DNA of 33,244 nucleotides. Origin: Candidatus Omnitrophota bacterium (lineage in GTDB: Bacteria; Omnitrophota; Gorgyraeia; Gorgyraeales; Gorgyraeaceae). Position numbers and translations under genes: made by a program. Location of the stretch: NCBI GenBank assembly GCA_030691625.1, contig JAUYDX010000048.1, positions 1 through 33,244 on the forward strand, read 5' to 3'. Below, one piece after another: positions 3,117 through 21,932 of this stretch (the stretch's first letter is position 1; each line of letters starts with the position of its first letter). The notes beneath the pieces are model-generated. The model did not search any database, was not told where the DNA came from, and saw only the letters and a list, made by a program, of their open reading frames with translations.

Positions 3117-4412
3117 ATGTTTTCAAACAAGCCTTATTTAAAAATAATTTCAACCACAGTATTTTTAATATTCTTATTAACTAATGTATACCCTTCTTGT
3201 GCATTAGCTTTAAGGCCTAATTTGATGGGAGATAAGGGAAAAGAAGGCCTTAGATGGAAAATTGCTGTGCAAGAAGTCGCAAAATTCAGTATACATAATT
3301 ACAGGCCTGGATGGACATTTAAAGGGTGGGTAGTTAGTAAAAAAGCTATAATAGATAATTTTAGAATTTTTCATGGAGGTTGGAGGGAGAAAGAAGGTGC
3401 ATCTATAACTGCTCAGGACAGAAAGGAAGCTCTAAAATTGGTTAGGATTCTTGCGAGAAAACTTGCTGAGAATAGAATAGAAACTTATTCTACATTGACA
3501 TATGCCATTCCTGATATAGCGTTAAGAGCGCTAAATATTGACGAGTTTAAGCTACTTATAGGTATTGGAATAGAGCTTGCTAAGCGCGGAGAAAATCCCT
3601 CCGAGATATTACAATTTTGTTCGAACATAGTTTGGTTGGTAAGAGGTATTAACGAGCCGGAACTATTTGCAGATCTAGTAATAGAAGCAGTTGCCAATCA
3701 TGATATAGATCAAATAGACTCAGTTGATAAAATAAGATATTATCTTCCTAAAGTAGGAATAATAACAGACAACGAAGCAAAAAAGCTATTTATGATTCTT
3801 GGAATAGAGCTTTTTAGAAATAAGGCAAATCCTTCGGGATTAGAGCCTTCTATTATATATGAAGCGTCAGCGAGAAACATTGAGGTGCTGAGAAAGTTTA
3901 TAGATATGGGAATAAATTTAGCTAAACATGGAGAAGAACCCTGGGAGCTATTAATGCAGACTATTCCAGATGAATATGAAGTATTGCCAAATGATAATGC
4001 GCGGCGTCTATTTATAGATCTCGGTATAGAACTTAGTAGGGAGGGAGTAAAACCTGATGTTGCTTTGTATGCTTTTTCTGAGGCAAGTTTGTTAACACGG
4101 GATCAGAAAAAATTACAATCTATATATAATGAATTATTAAAGCTCAATATAAAACTTAGTCAAGAAGGTGTCAAACTTGAGCCGTGGCATTTAAGAGAAT
4201 CTATGGCTAATTTGACTAAGGTGGCAATAACTGCCAATAGTGATGAAATACGCAAAGAATTATATGCGGAATTTGAAAAGGCAGTAATAAAACTTTCTGT
4301 AACAGATGAAGGTCTTTATGGGCTAAGCGCTCTTCAGGAAATACCCCCTATTATTACTGATATTAAAGAAAAAGTCCAATACGTTACGAATGCTTTAAGA
4401 AATGCTTTATAG
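3117..4412 (+). CDS. Putative secreted alpha-helical repeat protein, unknown function
   Basis: N-terminal signal peptide ISTTVFLIFLLTNVYPSCALA then LRPNL; aggag SD; internal repeats of the form F-I-x-x-GIELxxxGxxPxxxL. Confidence 0.8.
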   Translation: MFSNKPYLKIISTTVFLIFLLTNVYPSCALALRPNLMGDKGKEGLRWKIAVQEVAKFSIHNYRPGWTFKGWVVSKKAIIDNFRIFHGGWREKEGASITAQDRKEALKLVRILARKLAENRIETYSTLTYAIPDIALRALNIDEFKLLIGIGIELAKRGENPSEILQFCSNIVWLVRGINEPELFADLVIEAVANHDIDQIDSVDKIRYYLPKVGIITDNEAKKLFMILGIELFRNKANPSGLEPSIIYEASARNIEVLRKFIDMGINLAKHGEEPWELLMQTIPDEYEVLPNDNARRLFIDLGIELSREGVKPDVALYAFSEASLLTRDQKKLQSIYNELLKLNIKLSQEGVKLEPWHLRESMANLTKVAITANSDEIRKELYAEFEKAVIKLSVTDEGLYGLSALQEIPPIITDIKEKVQYVTNALRNAL

Positions 4413-12926: not shown

Positions 12927-13835
12927 ATGGATAGAGTTTGGTATGAGGTGGATCCGTTTAACAGGCTTATTGTGGCCGGCCCGCCAGGTAAAGAGAGGCG
13001 CTCCAGGGTCAGGAAGTTCCGAAGATTGGTTTCAGGCAGGTTCAAGATAGATACCGGTAACGAGCTTTTCTACGAAGTCAATAAATCTTCAGATGCAGAT
13101 ATCCCGCAAAAGATAAAATTCTCAGGCAAATACTCTCTGGATAAAAATCATAACCTGGTCTTTACGCTCAATAAATGGAATAACCAGTGCGAGGGGAATA
13201 GACTTACTTTAAAGACCAGGATAATGGACGCGAAGAGTAACGAGATCACGCTGCTGGTAAATTCCAAGGCGGATAAGAATAAAGGCCTAACTTATATAAT
13301 GAAACTTTACGGCGTGTGGCAGGCTGATAAGCGTAATAGGCTTATGTTCGGGGTAGAAAGGGATCCTGGGCGCGCGGATAATCTGACGCTTTCCGGCGCG
13401 TGGGAGATAAATAAGAATAATGAGATAGTTTACAGGCGCGGGAAGGAATCGCAGGCTATTATTTTCAGGGGCTCCTGGGATATTTCTGACAGGAATAGAA
13501 TAAGTTATGCGCTTGATAAAAAAATAAACTCAGGATTTAATTTTAAGGCTTCTCTTGGCGCCGTGGTTTCAAAAGCCAAGGATAAATCTCTTGTCTTTGA
13601 TGTAGGTATAGGGATATCCAAGGCTAAAAAGCTGCGCAAAAAAGTTATTTTCTCGGGCAAGTGGAAAATGGATAAGGGCAAAGAGCTTATTCTGGAGACA
13701 TCTGACGCGGAACAGGCTGGGGTGAAGTTAAAGCTTACAAAAGAAATGTTTGACAAGAGTGCCATAGCTTATATAGAATCTATATTTAGGGATGAAGAAG
13801 GGTATGTCGGCGGAGGCATAGCGTTTAAATGGTAA
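12927..13835 (+). CDS. Hypothetical protein with tandem beta-hairpin-like repeats
   Basis: At least six copies of a (F/L)-x-G-x-W/F/Y-x-(I/L/M)-(D/N)-K-x-N-x-(I/L) motif; overlaps the downstream pilin-like gene by 7 bp. Confidence 0.8.
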   Translation: MDRVWYEVDPFNRLIVAGPPGKERRSRVRKFRRLVSGRFKIDTGNELFYEVNKSSDADIPQKIKFSGKYSLDKNHNLVFTLNKWNNQCEGNRLTLKTRIMDAKSNEITLLVNSKADKNKGLTYIMKLYGVWQADKRNRLMFGVERDPGRADNLTLSGAWEINKNNEIVYRRGKESQAIIFRGSWDISDRNRISYALDKKINSGFNFKASLGAVVSKAKDKSLVFDVGIGISKAKKLRKKVIFSGKWKMDKGKELILETSDAEQAGVKLKLTKEMFDKSAIAYIESIFRDEEGYVGGGIAFKW

Positions 13836-14266
13836 AGAAAAAGGCAGGTTTTACGCTTCTGGAGCTAATGATAGGCGTGTGCGTGCTTATCGTGGCGCTC
13901 GTGGGACTATTAAGTGTCTTTGCCCACATGATATCTCTCAATGAAAATTCCAGTAAGCTCACGCTGGGAGTGGCCGCGTGCCAGGCAAAACTGGAAGAGA
14001 TGCGGAATTCCACATTTTCCATTTTATACACTACCTACAATAATACAAGCTTTAATCCCAGCGGTTTCGCAACAGGCGAGGCAAAAGGCGCCATATCAAT
14101 AAATAATTCAAATCCAAATCTTTTACAGGTTTCTGTAAATGTTTCCTGGAGGACGCGCTCTAACAGGGTGATAGGCGGGGATCAAAACCTCAATGGAGTC
14201 CTGGATGCGGGAGAATCTTCGCTGAATTCCCCGGCATCCATCACCACTCTTATTGGCCAGAGATGA
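13829..14266 (+). CDS. Type IV pilin/pseudopilin-like protein (PilV/GspI style)
   Basis: KKKAGFTLLELMIGVCVLIVALVGLLSVF prepilin N-methylation motif. Confidence 0.88.
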   Translation: MVKKKAGFTLLELMIGVCVLIVALVGLLSVFAHMISLNENSSKLTLGVAACQAKLEEMRNSTFSILYTTYNNTSFNPSGFATGEAKGAISINNSNPNLLQVSVNVSWRTRSNRVIGGDQNLNGVLDAGESSLNSPASITTLIGQR

Positions 14267-14790
14267 TTAAAAAATATAAAGGTTTTACCTTAATTGAAAT
14301 AGTTGTCGTGGCGTTTTTATTTTCAATAATCTCCGCGGCTATTTTTAGCGTGCTCGCGACCGGCAGAAACTCCCTTACTTCCGGAGAATCGCGGGTAGGC
14401 GTAGTGCAGGCGTGCAGAAATGGACTTGATTCCATGATAAAAGAATTAAGGCAGGCAGGCGCAGCCACGATAACAGGGGTGCCGGCAAACGGCACAAACT
14501 ACAGCTCAATAACATTTCAGATACCTGCGGCCATAGCCAGCGCGGGTATAACATGGTCAAACGCTATCCAGTACAGCCTGGGAGGTTTAAATGGCACGCA
14601 GTTGATCAGGACACAGTCAGGGAACCAGAAGGTCCTGGCAAACAATATCTCGGCAGTAAGTTTTAATAGGAGCGCCGCGAATCCTAATGTGGTGAATATA
14701 AATATCACGGCGCAGAAAAATACATTTCCGGGTTTTACAGCAGGGCAGACTATCGTAACACTTAGTTCGCAGGTAAGGGCTAGAAACTAA
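14263..14790 (+). CDS. Type IV pilin/pseudopilin-like protein (PilW/GspJ style)
   Basis: IKKYKGFTLIEIVVVAFLFSIISAAIFSVL prepilin motif; 4-bp overlap with the upstream gene. Confidence 0.88.
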   Translation: MIKKYKGFTLIEIVVVAFLFSIISAAIFSVLATGRNSLTSGESRVGVVQACRNGLDSMIKELRQAGAATITGVPANGTNYSSITFQIPAAIASAGITWSNAIQYSLGGLNGTQLIRTQSGNQKVLANNISAVSFNRSAANPNVVNINITAQKNTFPGFTAGQTIVTLSSQVRARN

Positions 14791-14791
14791 T

Positions 14792-15679
14792 ATGCTGAAT
14801 TTAAAAAATAGAAAAGGTTTTGTGCTCGTCACAGCTTACATGGTGGTGGCGGTTCTCGTGATAATGGCCACGAGTTTTTCAGCCAGGACCATCAGCGAAA
14901 AAAGGGTGGCTGACAAGGAAAGGGACACTGTCCAGGCGCTGTGGCTCGCAGAGGCAGGCGTGGACAGGGCTATTCAGGAACTGCCCGCTACGCCTTTATC
15001 AGGCACGCTAGGCCAGGGCGCGTATTCTACTCAGACAACTGCTTTGGACTCATCCGCTTATCTTATAACTTCAATAGGCGGGGTCCCAGATGCCAATGCA
15101 GCCAGCGCTAATAATGCTATCAGAAAACTCAGCGTGGTTTTGCAGCGGGCTATGAGCCCTGGTAATCCAGGAGACGTGACCAGCGCTATTACTGCAACCG
15201 GAGCTGTCACTATAAAAGGAAGCGCTGTTGTAAATGGCGAAGTGGATGAAAACCAGGTTTTCGATTTCGAGGAGATATTCGGGATATCTAAAAGCGCCAT
15301 GAGAAGCAGGGCCACGCGAATCTACACAGATCCAGCCAATAATATTACCCCTGTAAATCAATGCACGTGGGTGGATATGAACAGCATAACTGAAATGAAA
15401 ATCACAGAGACTGGCTGGTCAGGAAGCGGAATACTGGTTGTGGACGGAGACCTGAATATAACAGGAGGGACTTTTTCAGGCATAATATGGGTGATAGGCA
15501 CGCTGACGGTGAGCGGCAACCCTATTATAGACGGCGCTTTATTTGTGGAAAGCGGGGCAGAGGTTAATACCCTTACAGGTAACCCCACAGTGAGTTTTGA
15601 CAGCGATGCTGTGGCTGACGCATTTGGTTTTATACCCACCACCTCGAGTCCCACTATAATAGGCTGGAAAGAAGATTGA
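14792..15679 (+). CDS. PilX-like pilus assembly protein
   Basis: NRKGFVLVTAYMVVAVLVIMATSFSARTISEKR...ALWLAEAGVDRAIQEL typical of the PilX N-terminus. Confidence 0.78.
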   Translation: MLNLKNRKGFVLVTAYMVVAVLVIMATSFSARTISEKRVADKERDTVQALWLAEAGVDRAIQELPATPLSGTLGQGAYSTQTTALDSSAYLITSIGGVPDANAASANNAIRKLSVVLQRAMSPGNPGDVTSAITATGAVTIKGSAVVNGEVDENQVFDFEEIFGISKSAMRSRATRIYTDPANNITPVNQCTWVDMNSITEMKITETGWSGSGILVVDGDLNITGGTFSGIIWVIGTLTVSGNPIIDGALFVESGAEVNTLTGNPTVSFDSDAVADAFGFIPTTSSPTIIGWKED

Positions 15680-19666: not shown

Positions 19667-19704
19667 CACCTCGTAGGTGGGGTTTAAACCCCACCTACGA
19701 GGTG
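19667..19704. repeat. 38-nt perfect palindrome CACCTCGTAGGTGGGGTTTAAACCCCACCTACGAGGTG
   Basis: 19-bp self-complementary arms. Confidence 0.95.
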
Positions 19705-19715
19705 GGGGTGGTTTA

Positions 19716-21932
19716 ATGAGAAAAATTAATATAGCATTTATATCTACGTTAATAGGGGTGTTTTTGGCCTCAGGGACATCGTATGCTATCAGGGTGCCGA
19801 TGGGCTTAAAGCTGGAGCAGAGAAATAACTTGAGGCCGGAGTTTACTTATTATACAAGAGATGAAAACGGGAATCTTCTTAAAGAGCCATGCGGTTTTCC
19901 AGGATACTGGGCAGTAGAAGCGAAGGTTCCGATAGAAGAAAATACAAATGCCAGCATACAGAGAATGGTAAAGTCTTTTTCCTTATCTATGCAGGTCTCT
20001 GGCAGGGAAGATGTAAAGAAGGCTAAATTTACTGTAGTAGATAAATTGCCTAAAGAGAAAGTAGTTTTAGCAAAGGGAATTGGTTTTTATATAAAGGCTT
20101 CTGGAAAATTTGGTCTTGAAGTAGTTTTGGAGCCATCCTTTTTAAAAAATGGTATAAGCGCGCAAAGGGCTATATTTTCGAGTGTCGCAGGAGAAATCCC
20201 TGAACAAAAAGATCTTATTGCGATTAAAAATAAAAAATTAGACGATAAGTCAAAAAGGATACTTATAATCAATACCCTCTCTCAAGAATTGAATAATAGG
20301 GAGTTTTCAACGCTTAACTTAACATCGCTTGCGCTGGCCAGCCTTCTAAAAAAATATGGCCATGATGTTAAAGTGGAAAATTTTGATTTATCTGGAAAAA
20401 GCATAGATGACATAAAGCTACAAAGCGCTGATATCGTATGTATATCTGTGTATGATGAACAGGTTGCTTATATAAAGGCATTCACGGAGCGCATAAAGAA
20501 GGTGAATCAAAAGATTATGATCGCAGTCGGCGGACCTGCCTTAACTGTAATTCCGGAACATATGTTCGCGCATTTACCAAACGCGGACATTTTTTATAGA
20601 GGTGAAGCAGAGGCTGGATTTGCGGATGTATTAAATAATTTAGAGAACCTGGATTTTGAATCATTATCCGAACTTTCCGGAGTGGCAGTCCATAGAGATG
20701 CTATGTATTATTTTAACGATCTTATTTCAGTGAATAGGATGAATGAAGAGCAATTGAATCAGAGGCCCATGGATTTTTCTTTTTTGAACCAAGGCAATAT
20801 AGACGGTTCGTTTAGCCTTATGACAAGCCTGGGTTGTCCGTATGGCTGTGTGTTCTGCGCCACAGGCGGGGGCAAGGCGCACAGGGCAATGTCTCCTGAA
20901 AAGGTCATAGAAACTGCTCGCAGGTATCAGGAAAGACTGGAGACGCTTGAATCAGAAGGCGCAAAAATCCCAGATCTAGCCTGGATTTTTTGTTTTAACG
21001 ACGATGACTTTTTGTGGGACGCTGAAAGGGCTATGAAGATACTGGAATTATGGAGAAAGGCAAGGCTTAGATTAAAAATCACTACATTTCAATCTACAGT
21101 ACAGTCATTTCTCACAAGAGATGAAACGGGAGAAAGAATGGTAAATATAGATTTAATCAGAAGAATTTCTTCTTTTAGAGATATATTTAGCTACGGCTTT
21201 AAAATCGGAATAGGTACAGACGCTCTTATAGACTCAGAGATAGGGCGGTTAAAAGGTCCAAATAATAAGAAACTTCCATATTATAATGAGAAGCTTATTG
21301 AAGATGTTATGGCGGAATTAGGAAAAAGATATATTCCAAATGAACATTACCTTATTTTAACAAACGCAGATACTTCTTTAGAGGATTTGATAAGAACGCT
21401 TTTAAAAGCGGCTACATTTGAGCTAATATATCCTTATACATTTTTTCATATTAATTATGCAGTAATACCGCATGCGGGAACTTCTGTTATTAATAAGCTT
21501 ATTGAAGATCAAAGGGAATCGCTATTAAATGGCACAACCTCTATGTATAGGTATACTAAAATTCCTGATTTTAAGGAATACGATTTTTTTGGCTTACCTT
21601 ATTTAGTTGCTCCGGAAAAGATTCCACAAGATATTTCTACTAATATGGACGCTTATTTTTTTAAGTACTATTTCTATAACTCTTTTCTAAAATATATTGC
21701 GCTTGGATGTTTAGAAGATCTTTCAATGGAGGTATTTAAAAATACAGGGCTATTTTCATCAATAAGGAGCGAGGTAGTTAAAAAAGAGCTATTCCAATTT
21801 ATAATGCTCGCATTTGAAATAAAAGGCAGGAATGAAGAGAAAGTTTTACATATAGCTACAATATGGCATAGTTTATATAATATGCTGCTATTACATGCGC
21901 CAGTCTCTGAAAGCGTAGAGACAAGTCTATAA
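19716..21932 (+). CDS. Radical SAM protein with B12-binding-like domain and N-terminal signal peptide
   Basis: MRKINIAFISTLIGVFLASGTSYA signal-like; KRILIINTLSQ...VGGPALTVIPEHMF B12-binding-like; CPYGCVFC (CxxxCxxC). Listed start 19677 lies inside the palindrome; ATG 19716 preferred. Confidence 0.85.
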   Translation: MRKINIAFISTLIGVFLASGTSYAIRVPMGLKLEQRNNLRPEFTYYTRDENGNLLKEPCGFPGYWAVEAKVPIEENTNASIQRMVKSFSLSMQVSGREDVKKAKFTVVDKLPKEKVVLAKGIGFYIKASGKFGLEVVLEPSFLKNGISAQRAIFSSVAGEIPEQKDLIAIKNKKLDDKSKRILIINTLSQELNNREFSTLNLTSLALASLLKKYGHDVKVENFDLSGKSIDDIKLQSADIVCISVYDEQVAYIKAFTERIKKVNQKIMIAVGGPALTVIPEHMFAHLPNADIFYRGEAEAGFADVLNNLENLDFESLSELSGVAVHRDAMYYFNDLISVNRMNEEQLNQRPMDFSFLNQGNIDGSFSLMTSLGCPYGCVFCATGGGKAHRAMSPEKVIETARRYQERLETLESEGAKIPDLAWIFCFNDDDFLWDAERAMKILELWRKARLRLKITTFQSTVQSFLTRDETGERMVNIDLIRRISSFRDIFSYGFKIGIGTDALIDSEIGRLKGPNNKKLPYYNEKLIEDVMAELGKRYIPNEHYLILTNADTSLEDLIRTLLKAATFELIYPYTFFHINYAVIPHAGTSVINKLIEDQRESLLNGTTSMYRYTKIPDFKEYDFFGLPYLVAPEKIPQDISTNMDAYFFKYYFYNSFLKYIALGCLEDLSMEVFKNTGLFSSIRSEVVKKELFQFIMLAFEIKGRNEEKVLHIATIWHSLYNMLLLHAPVSESVETSL

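Follow-up and report, generated by a model that had tools for sequence, protein, structure and literature searches.

A Sec-like leader on a predicted cobalamin-dependent radical SAM protein of Omnitrophota recurs on giant open reading frames

Enzymes that rely on radical SAM chemistry or use NTPs normally reside in the cytosol. What, then, is a hydrophobic leader doing at the start of a B12-binding/radical SAM protein in the Omnitrophota, an uncultured and apparently host-dependent phylum of tiny host-associated cells? The question is raised by a gene in a 33,244-nt stretch of Omnitrophota DNA (the window; contig C53 of a 1.44-Mb genome in 101 contigs), in which the initial annotation had described the frame 19716-21932 as opening with a signal-peptide-like leader followed by IRVP. 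Translation bears this description out, the N-terminus of the encoded protein, here called P0001, being MRKINIAFISTLIGVFLASGTSYA-IRVP (Table 1).

Table 1. Features of the P0001 locus, with positions counted along the window
Feature	Position	Strand	Basis or remark
Leader-bearing B12-binding/radical SAM protein gene (P0001), 738 aa	19716..21932	+	ATG 19716 to stop 21932; G008 ortholog
Sec-like leader, residues 1-24	19716..19787	+	leader profile match E 2.6e-8
Post-leader IRVP motif (in relatives: LRxP tag)	19788..19799	+	Arg invariant in 15/15 aligned leaders
Novel N-terminal domain, residues ~40-168	19833..20219	+	AlphaFold model; precedes B12/radical SAM modules in other genomes
B12-binding domain, residues 201-305	20316..20630	+	PF02310 E 2.7e-12
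Radical SAM core, residues 371-407	20826..20936	+	PF04055 26.1 bits; Foldseek to OxsB, TsrM, CysS, TokK
CxxxCxxC [4Fe-4S] motif, residues 374-381	20835..20858	+	nearly invariant across family members
C-terminal, mostly helical region, low model confidence	21627..21929	+	placed like the helical bundle of OxsB
Perfect 38-nt palindrome, 19-nt arms (CACCTCGTAGGTGGGGTTT/AAACCCCACCTACGAGGTG)	19667..19704	+	ends 11 nt before the P0001 ATG
Second leader-tagged protein, 431 aa, SCALALRPNL	3117..4412	+	repeat-like helical sequence; no Pfam match

The anatomy of P0001 (gene, domains and leader) is well supported. As had been proposed, an unfamiliar N-terminal stretch leads into a B12-binding domain and then a CxxxCxxC radical SAM domain: Pfam gives no match for residues ~25-200, PF02310 scores 47 bits against a cut-off of 32.1, and PF04055 (Radical_SAM) falls just below its cut-off of 29.5 bits. 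The modelled radical SAM fold extends past the residues matched by PF04055, and the best PDB folds returned by Foldseek for the whole model (pLDDT 71.5, with leader and C-terminus at low confidence) are OxsB (5ul4, E 2.6e-14), TsrM, CysS and TokK. All four resemble P0001 in the succession of a B12-binding domain, a CxxxCxxC-bearing radical SAM domain and helices towards the C-terminus, and the four-part domain order of OxsB is the same as that of P0001 (PMC13331322); the differences lie in a sequence identity of about 15%, in the leader of P0001 and in the presence of its family's modules inside giant open reading frames (ORFs). NCBIfam matches also run through the B12/radical SAM core, which HpnR, KedN5 and HpnJ have in common with P0001, but membership in these families is ruled out by scores of 46.9 of 650 (the best match), 45.8 of 700 and 42.2 of 577.6 bits, respectively. 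The case for P0001 as a cobalamin-dependent radical SAM protein is strong, with SAM cleavage and cobalamin chemistry predicted.

The CxxxCxxC motif occurs only once in P0001, and Cys374, Cys378 and Cys381 are nearly invariant throughout the P0001 family, which fits selection for [4Fe-4S] binding. This near-invariance argues against a module that is exported yet catalytically dead, one with a binding or structural role in surface proteins. Such a role would suit both the sub-threshold Pfam radical SAM score and the location of the module inside very large ORFs, many of whose regions are uncharacterised; it is improbable in our judgement, also because a tagged NDP kinase described below retains its expected active-site His.

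A new domain had been suspected in the N-terminal region, and the suspicion has held up. A unit of ~130 aa is modelled by AlphaFold as discrete and with confidence (pLDDT 88.9, pTM 0.83), with a topology of strands, long helix, strands and helix, and it has no credible match in Pfam, PDB sequences or PDB folds. Compared with PDB folds on its own, the model gave matches only at E of 0.18 or more, and the 50 matches listed do not include OxsB, which sets the domain apart from the N-terminal domain of OxsB. Several zincin-type proteases and YbeY are among the listed matches, all insignificant, so that the model offers no more than a lead towards a degenerate zincin fold. The domain carries the signature D-x-x-G...GFPGxW...RxxKS...Q, which in the looser form D-x-x-G...G(F)PGxW...R...S...Q is seen to precede the B12 domain in roughly a dozen genomes, giant ORFs included. 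Profiles reported the domain in 4 to 9 of 384 phylum genomes, and an alignment search of contigs from an 84,980-species collection returned two loci, both from Omnitrophota; a contig scan of the same collection with the single P0001 protein as query gave no match. The P0001 family thus brings a new domain joined to a B12/radical SAM clade.

By inspection, the leader of P0001 has an n-region of charge +3 (N-terminus counted), a hydrophobic core and an SYA end. In n-region, core and small residues it has the make-up of a Sec-type signal peptide, for which cleavage and translocation are predicted. A same-genus ortholog in genome G008, 60% identical to P0001, retains the leader (...INIALIFMLIGVFLFSDVSYALRVP). 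Neither leader contains RR, and residues 1-58 of P0001 are free of Cys, which rules out a Tat substrate or a lipoprotein. A gene-start artefact is likewise ruled out by the conservation in G008, by the excess of third-position changes between the two sets of leader codons (8, against 4 and 5 at positions 1 and 2) and by residue 29, which is the nearest downstream Met in P0001 and a Val in the ortholog. The flanking order aldolase, P0001 gene, ribosomal L13 and S9 is also kept in G008; given this synteny, a search that found no close plasmid relative (best 27%) and no viral relative found, mis-binned or mobile DNA is unlikely.

Is the leader simply a habit of such proteins? That is ruled out by 27 ordinary B12/radical SAM paralogs from related genomes, all of which start right at the B12 domain and are leaderless. 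The concern that homologs might begin downstream of the hydrophobic segment proved unfounded for the full-length G008 homolog and for leader-bearing distant ones, but it applies to two family members (G204 and G152), which lack the leader and the N-terminal domain as well. These two members, together with the fact that every cofactor is cytosolic, would suit a leader that the cell ignores (vestigial, or concerned with mRNA translation or localisation only), so that the enzyme stays in the cytosol like any radical SAM protein. We consider this quite improbable, since the leader is absent from all the ordinary paralogs examined and is conserved in sequence and direction over many unrelated proteins and genomes.

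With the entire module as a profile, relatives of P0001 were found in ORFs of 813 to 45,379 aa, several of which occupy whole contigs and may truly be larger; the 45,379-aa match (G041) spans part of the module only. Leader-bearing members occur in G210 (1,338 and 2,245 aa), G216 (1,141 aa), G284 (953 aa) and G121 (7,924 aa). In a tree of 66 rows, built without G041, the P0001 clade (17 rows, one of them a duplicate of G008) is split from 49 ordinary B12/radical SAM rows with a support of 100/100. Modules of this clade occur almost solely in leader-bearing or giant ORFs.

The initial annotation had regarded export or membrane tethering of a radical SAM enzyme as unusual; the leader is real, but it is no isolated oddity, being common to many unrelated proteins and to giant ORFs. 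Our census of leaders combined sampled stretches with profile searches. In an unbiased sample of P0001's genome, 16 leader-like proteins included only 3 with the motif [LI]R[PVIA][PVNLM] just past the core, where shuffling gave an expectation of 0.49 (P 0.011); this low fraction also weakens the reading of P0001 as routed by a conserved leader. A profile of four such leaders found more tagged proteins in this genome, and among those not used for training E reached 2e-8. Fifteen aligned leaders gave the common pattern K-x-I...LI..FL...aLRxP, and the profile made from them (P0001 and its G008 ortholog are among the training rows) returned 280 matches at E <= 0.1, training leaders counted, in 59 related genomes: 193 in 19 of the same family and 87 in 40 others. 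The reversed profile returned 6 in all, ruling out a chance hydrophobic N-terminus. LRxP usually lies within about 15 residues past the leader core, with L[SA]Px in other families. The computational case for a putative Omnitrophota leader class, conserved in sequence, is strong, and a literature search of partial coverage found no description of it. Sequence-conserved signal peptides, often on large surface proteins, are represented elsewhere by ESPR of autotransporters and YSIRK-G/S of Gram-positives; the Omnitrophota leader differs from these in its motif (KxISxxLIxxFL...LRxP) and in its presence on metabolic enzyme domains.

The charge distribution of the leaders bears on their direction. 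In all 15, charges run from +2 to +6 in the n-region and from -1 to +2 over the 15 residues that follow the core, and this excess of positive charge before the core favours an N-in/C-out orientation, and thus either export or an anchor that faces outwards. An anchor at the inner membrane, whether uncleaved or cleaved slowly, would agree with a single hydrophobic segment and with the conserved Arg just past it, which could slow translocation; it would hold P0001 at the periplasmic face or, if inverted, leave the catalytic part in the cytosol, removing the cofactor problem. The inverted arrangement, however, violates the positive-inside rule in view of the charge bias, and many of the leaders end in an SYA/AYS-type sequence resembling signal peptidase sites, and hence we regard an anchor as unlikely. 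Exported mature chains do not typically begin with an Arg close behind the leader; the invariance of this Arg here, as well as the leaderless G204 and G152 members, also weakens the reading as Sec export.

The proteins that carry the leader are diverse. Among the tagged proteins of P0001's genus, Pfam identified enzymes of cytosolic type, namely an NDP kinase, a HATPase_c protein (histidine-kinase ATPase), several methyltransferases and a HAD hydrolase; a class-II aldolase was recognised weakly, another tagged protein combines a carbohydrate phosphorylase with a starch-synthase-like domain, and several have no Pfam match. Long leader-bearing proteins of G210 contain PPDK_N/PEP-utilising, phosphoribulokinase/uridine kinase and LOG/methyltransferase domains, and another protein is a subtilase that carries lectin domains, which would be in keeping with secretion. 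The tagged NDP kinase contains the sequence NKIHASGS, whose His we take to be the expected active-site residue, and it is an extra paralog: a leaderless housekeeping NDK of ~170 aa is present in nearly every related genome, while second, divergent copies are for the most part embedded in long ORFs (four genomes, 456 to 2,941 aa), those of P0001's genome (456 aa) and G036 (605 aa) bearing the leader. Similarly, ribulose-phosphate 3-epimerase recurs as a second domain in ORFs of >2,100 aa (G025:C32 and G006:C29) beside the housekeeping gene.

A class-wide leader profile (LIQxFL...L[SA]P) has matches in 42 of the 59 genomes, giant ORFs included. Matches lie close to where several giant ORFs begin, at lengths of 45,379 (G041), 20,415 (G038), 18,022 (G048), 10,989 (G006) and 9,699 aa (G033), with the exact start codons uncertain where giant-ORF leaders begin 30-50 residues past the upstream stop. 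Giant Omnitrophota proteins have been proposed to be adhesive or predatory surface proteins; they have few annotated domains, and the term 'signal peptide' is absent from that paper (PMC10066038). The proposal is context here and no evidence for P0001 itself. Like P0001, the giant ORFs of that kind contain P0001-family modules and the leader class, whereas P0001 is small and stand-alone. In five cases (G385:C5, G239:C35, G308:C48, G187:C38 and G245:C9) a whole contig of 16-98 kb is one ORF, such giants being truncated by assembly. By eye, the giant ORFs L114 (G385), L142 (G308) and L141 (G315) show J-domain-like and histidine-kinase-ATPase-like stretches. A VHIQDAHxxxxAQ-like motif, shared soon past the leader by the large leader-bearing proteins L145 and L146 (G121) and L199 (G210), suggests another common domain.

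Taken together, we would put at about one half the probability that P0001 is a radical SAM enzyme dependent on cobalamin and that a conserved Sec-like leader routes it into the extracytoplasmic set of the giants. The nascent chain would most likely be brought to the Sec translocon by the leader, N-terminus in and C-terminus out. After cleavage, mature P0001 would join this set, possibly directed to a partner cell, and, once loaded with its cofactors, would perform a B12/SAM-dependent modification, probably a methylation, where SAM and reductant occur.

An extracytoplasmic P0001 is disfavoured because it would have to obtain low-potential electrons, SAM, cobalamin and a [4Fe-4S] cluster beyond the cytosol, and we know of no cofactor or substrate supply there, whether for a B12/[4Fe-4S]/SAM enzyme or for NDP kinase. 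Respiratory reductive dehalogenases (RdhA) are corrinoid enzymes, and they offer a likeness as Fe-S enzymes active outside the cytoplasmic membrane, although they are not radical SAM enzymes. They leave the cytosol through the Tat pathway and bear an RRxFxK motif for it (PMC6797604). Sec export of a corrinoid/FeS enzyme is disfavoured, since such known exported enzymes use Tat and P0001 has no twin-Arg. With this cofactor conflict, either the proteins would end in the cytoplasm of a partner cell, or they would be held in the envelope, or the leader would be no normal signal peptide.

On sequence grounds, the sharing of the leader hints at a dedicated route for metabolic enzymes, out of the cell or into the envelope. 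A wider and more tentative reading is that a dedicated, sequence-conserved Omnitrophota export signal sends out cofactor-dependent metabolic enzymes (B12/radical SAM, NDP kinase, methyltransferases and glycan phosphorylase) along with giant multi-enzyme proteins, and that the duplicated enzymes may act in partner or prey cells. The leader class supplies candidates, open to test, for enzymes directed to a host or to the surface and, being common to such enzymes and the giants, offers a handle on the purpose and site of action of the latter.

Two further observations concern the window. The palindrome upstream of P0001 (fold z-score of the region -5.96) forms a predicted strong hairpin adjoining the ribosome-binding region; no other site was found among the loci compared, and it could be a translation control or a leftover repeat. 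At 13829-15679, three consecutive genes have type-IV-pilin-like N-termini (GFTLLELMIG, GFTLIEIVVV and GFVLVTAYMV).
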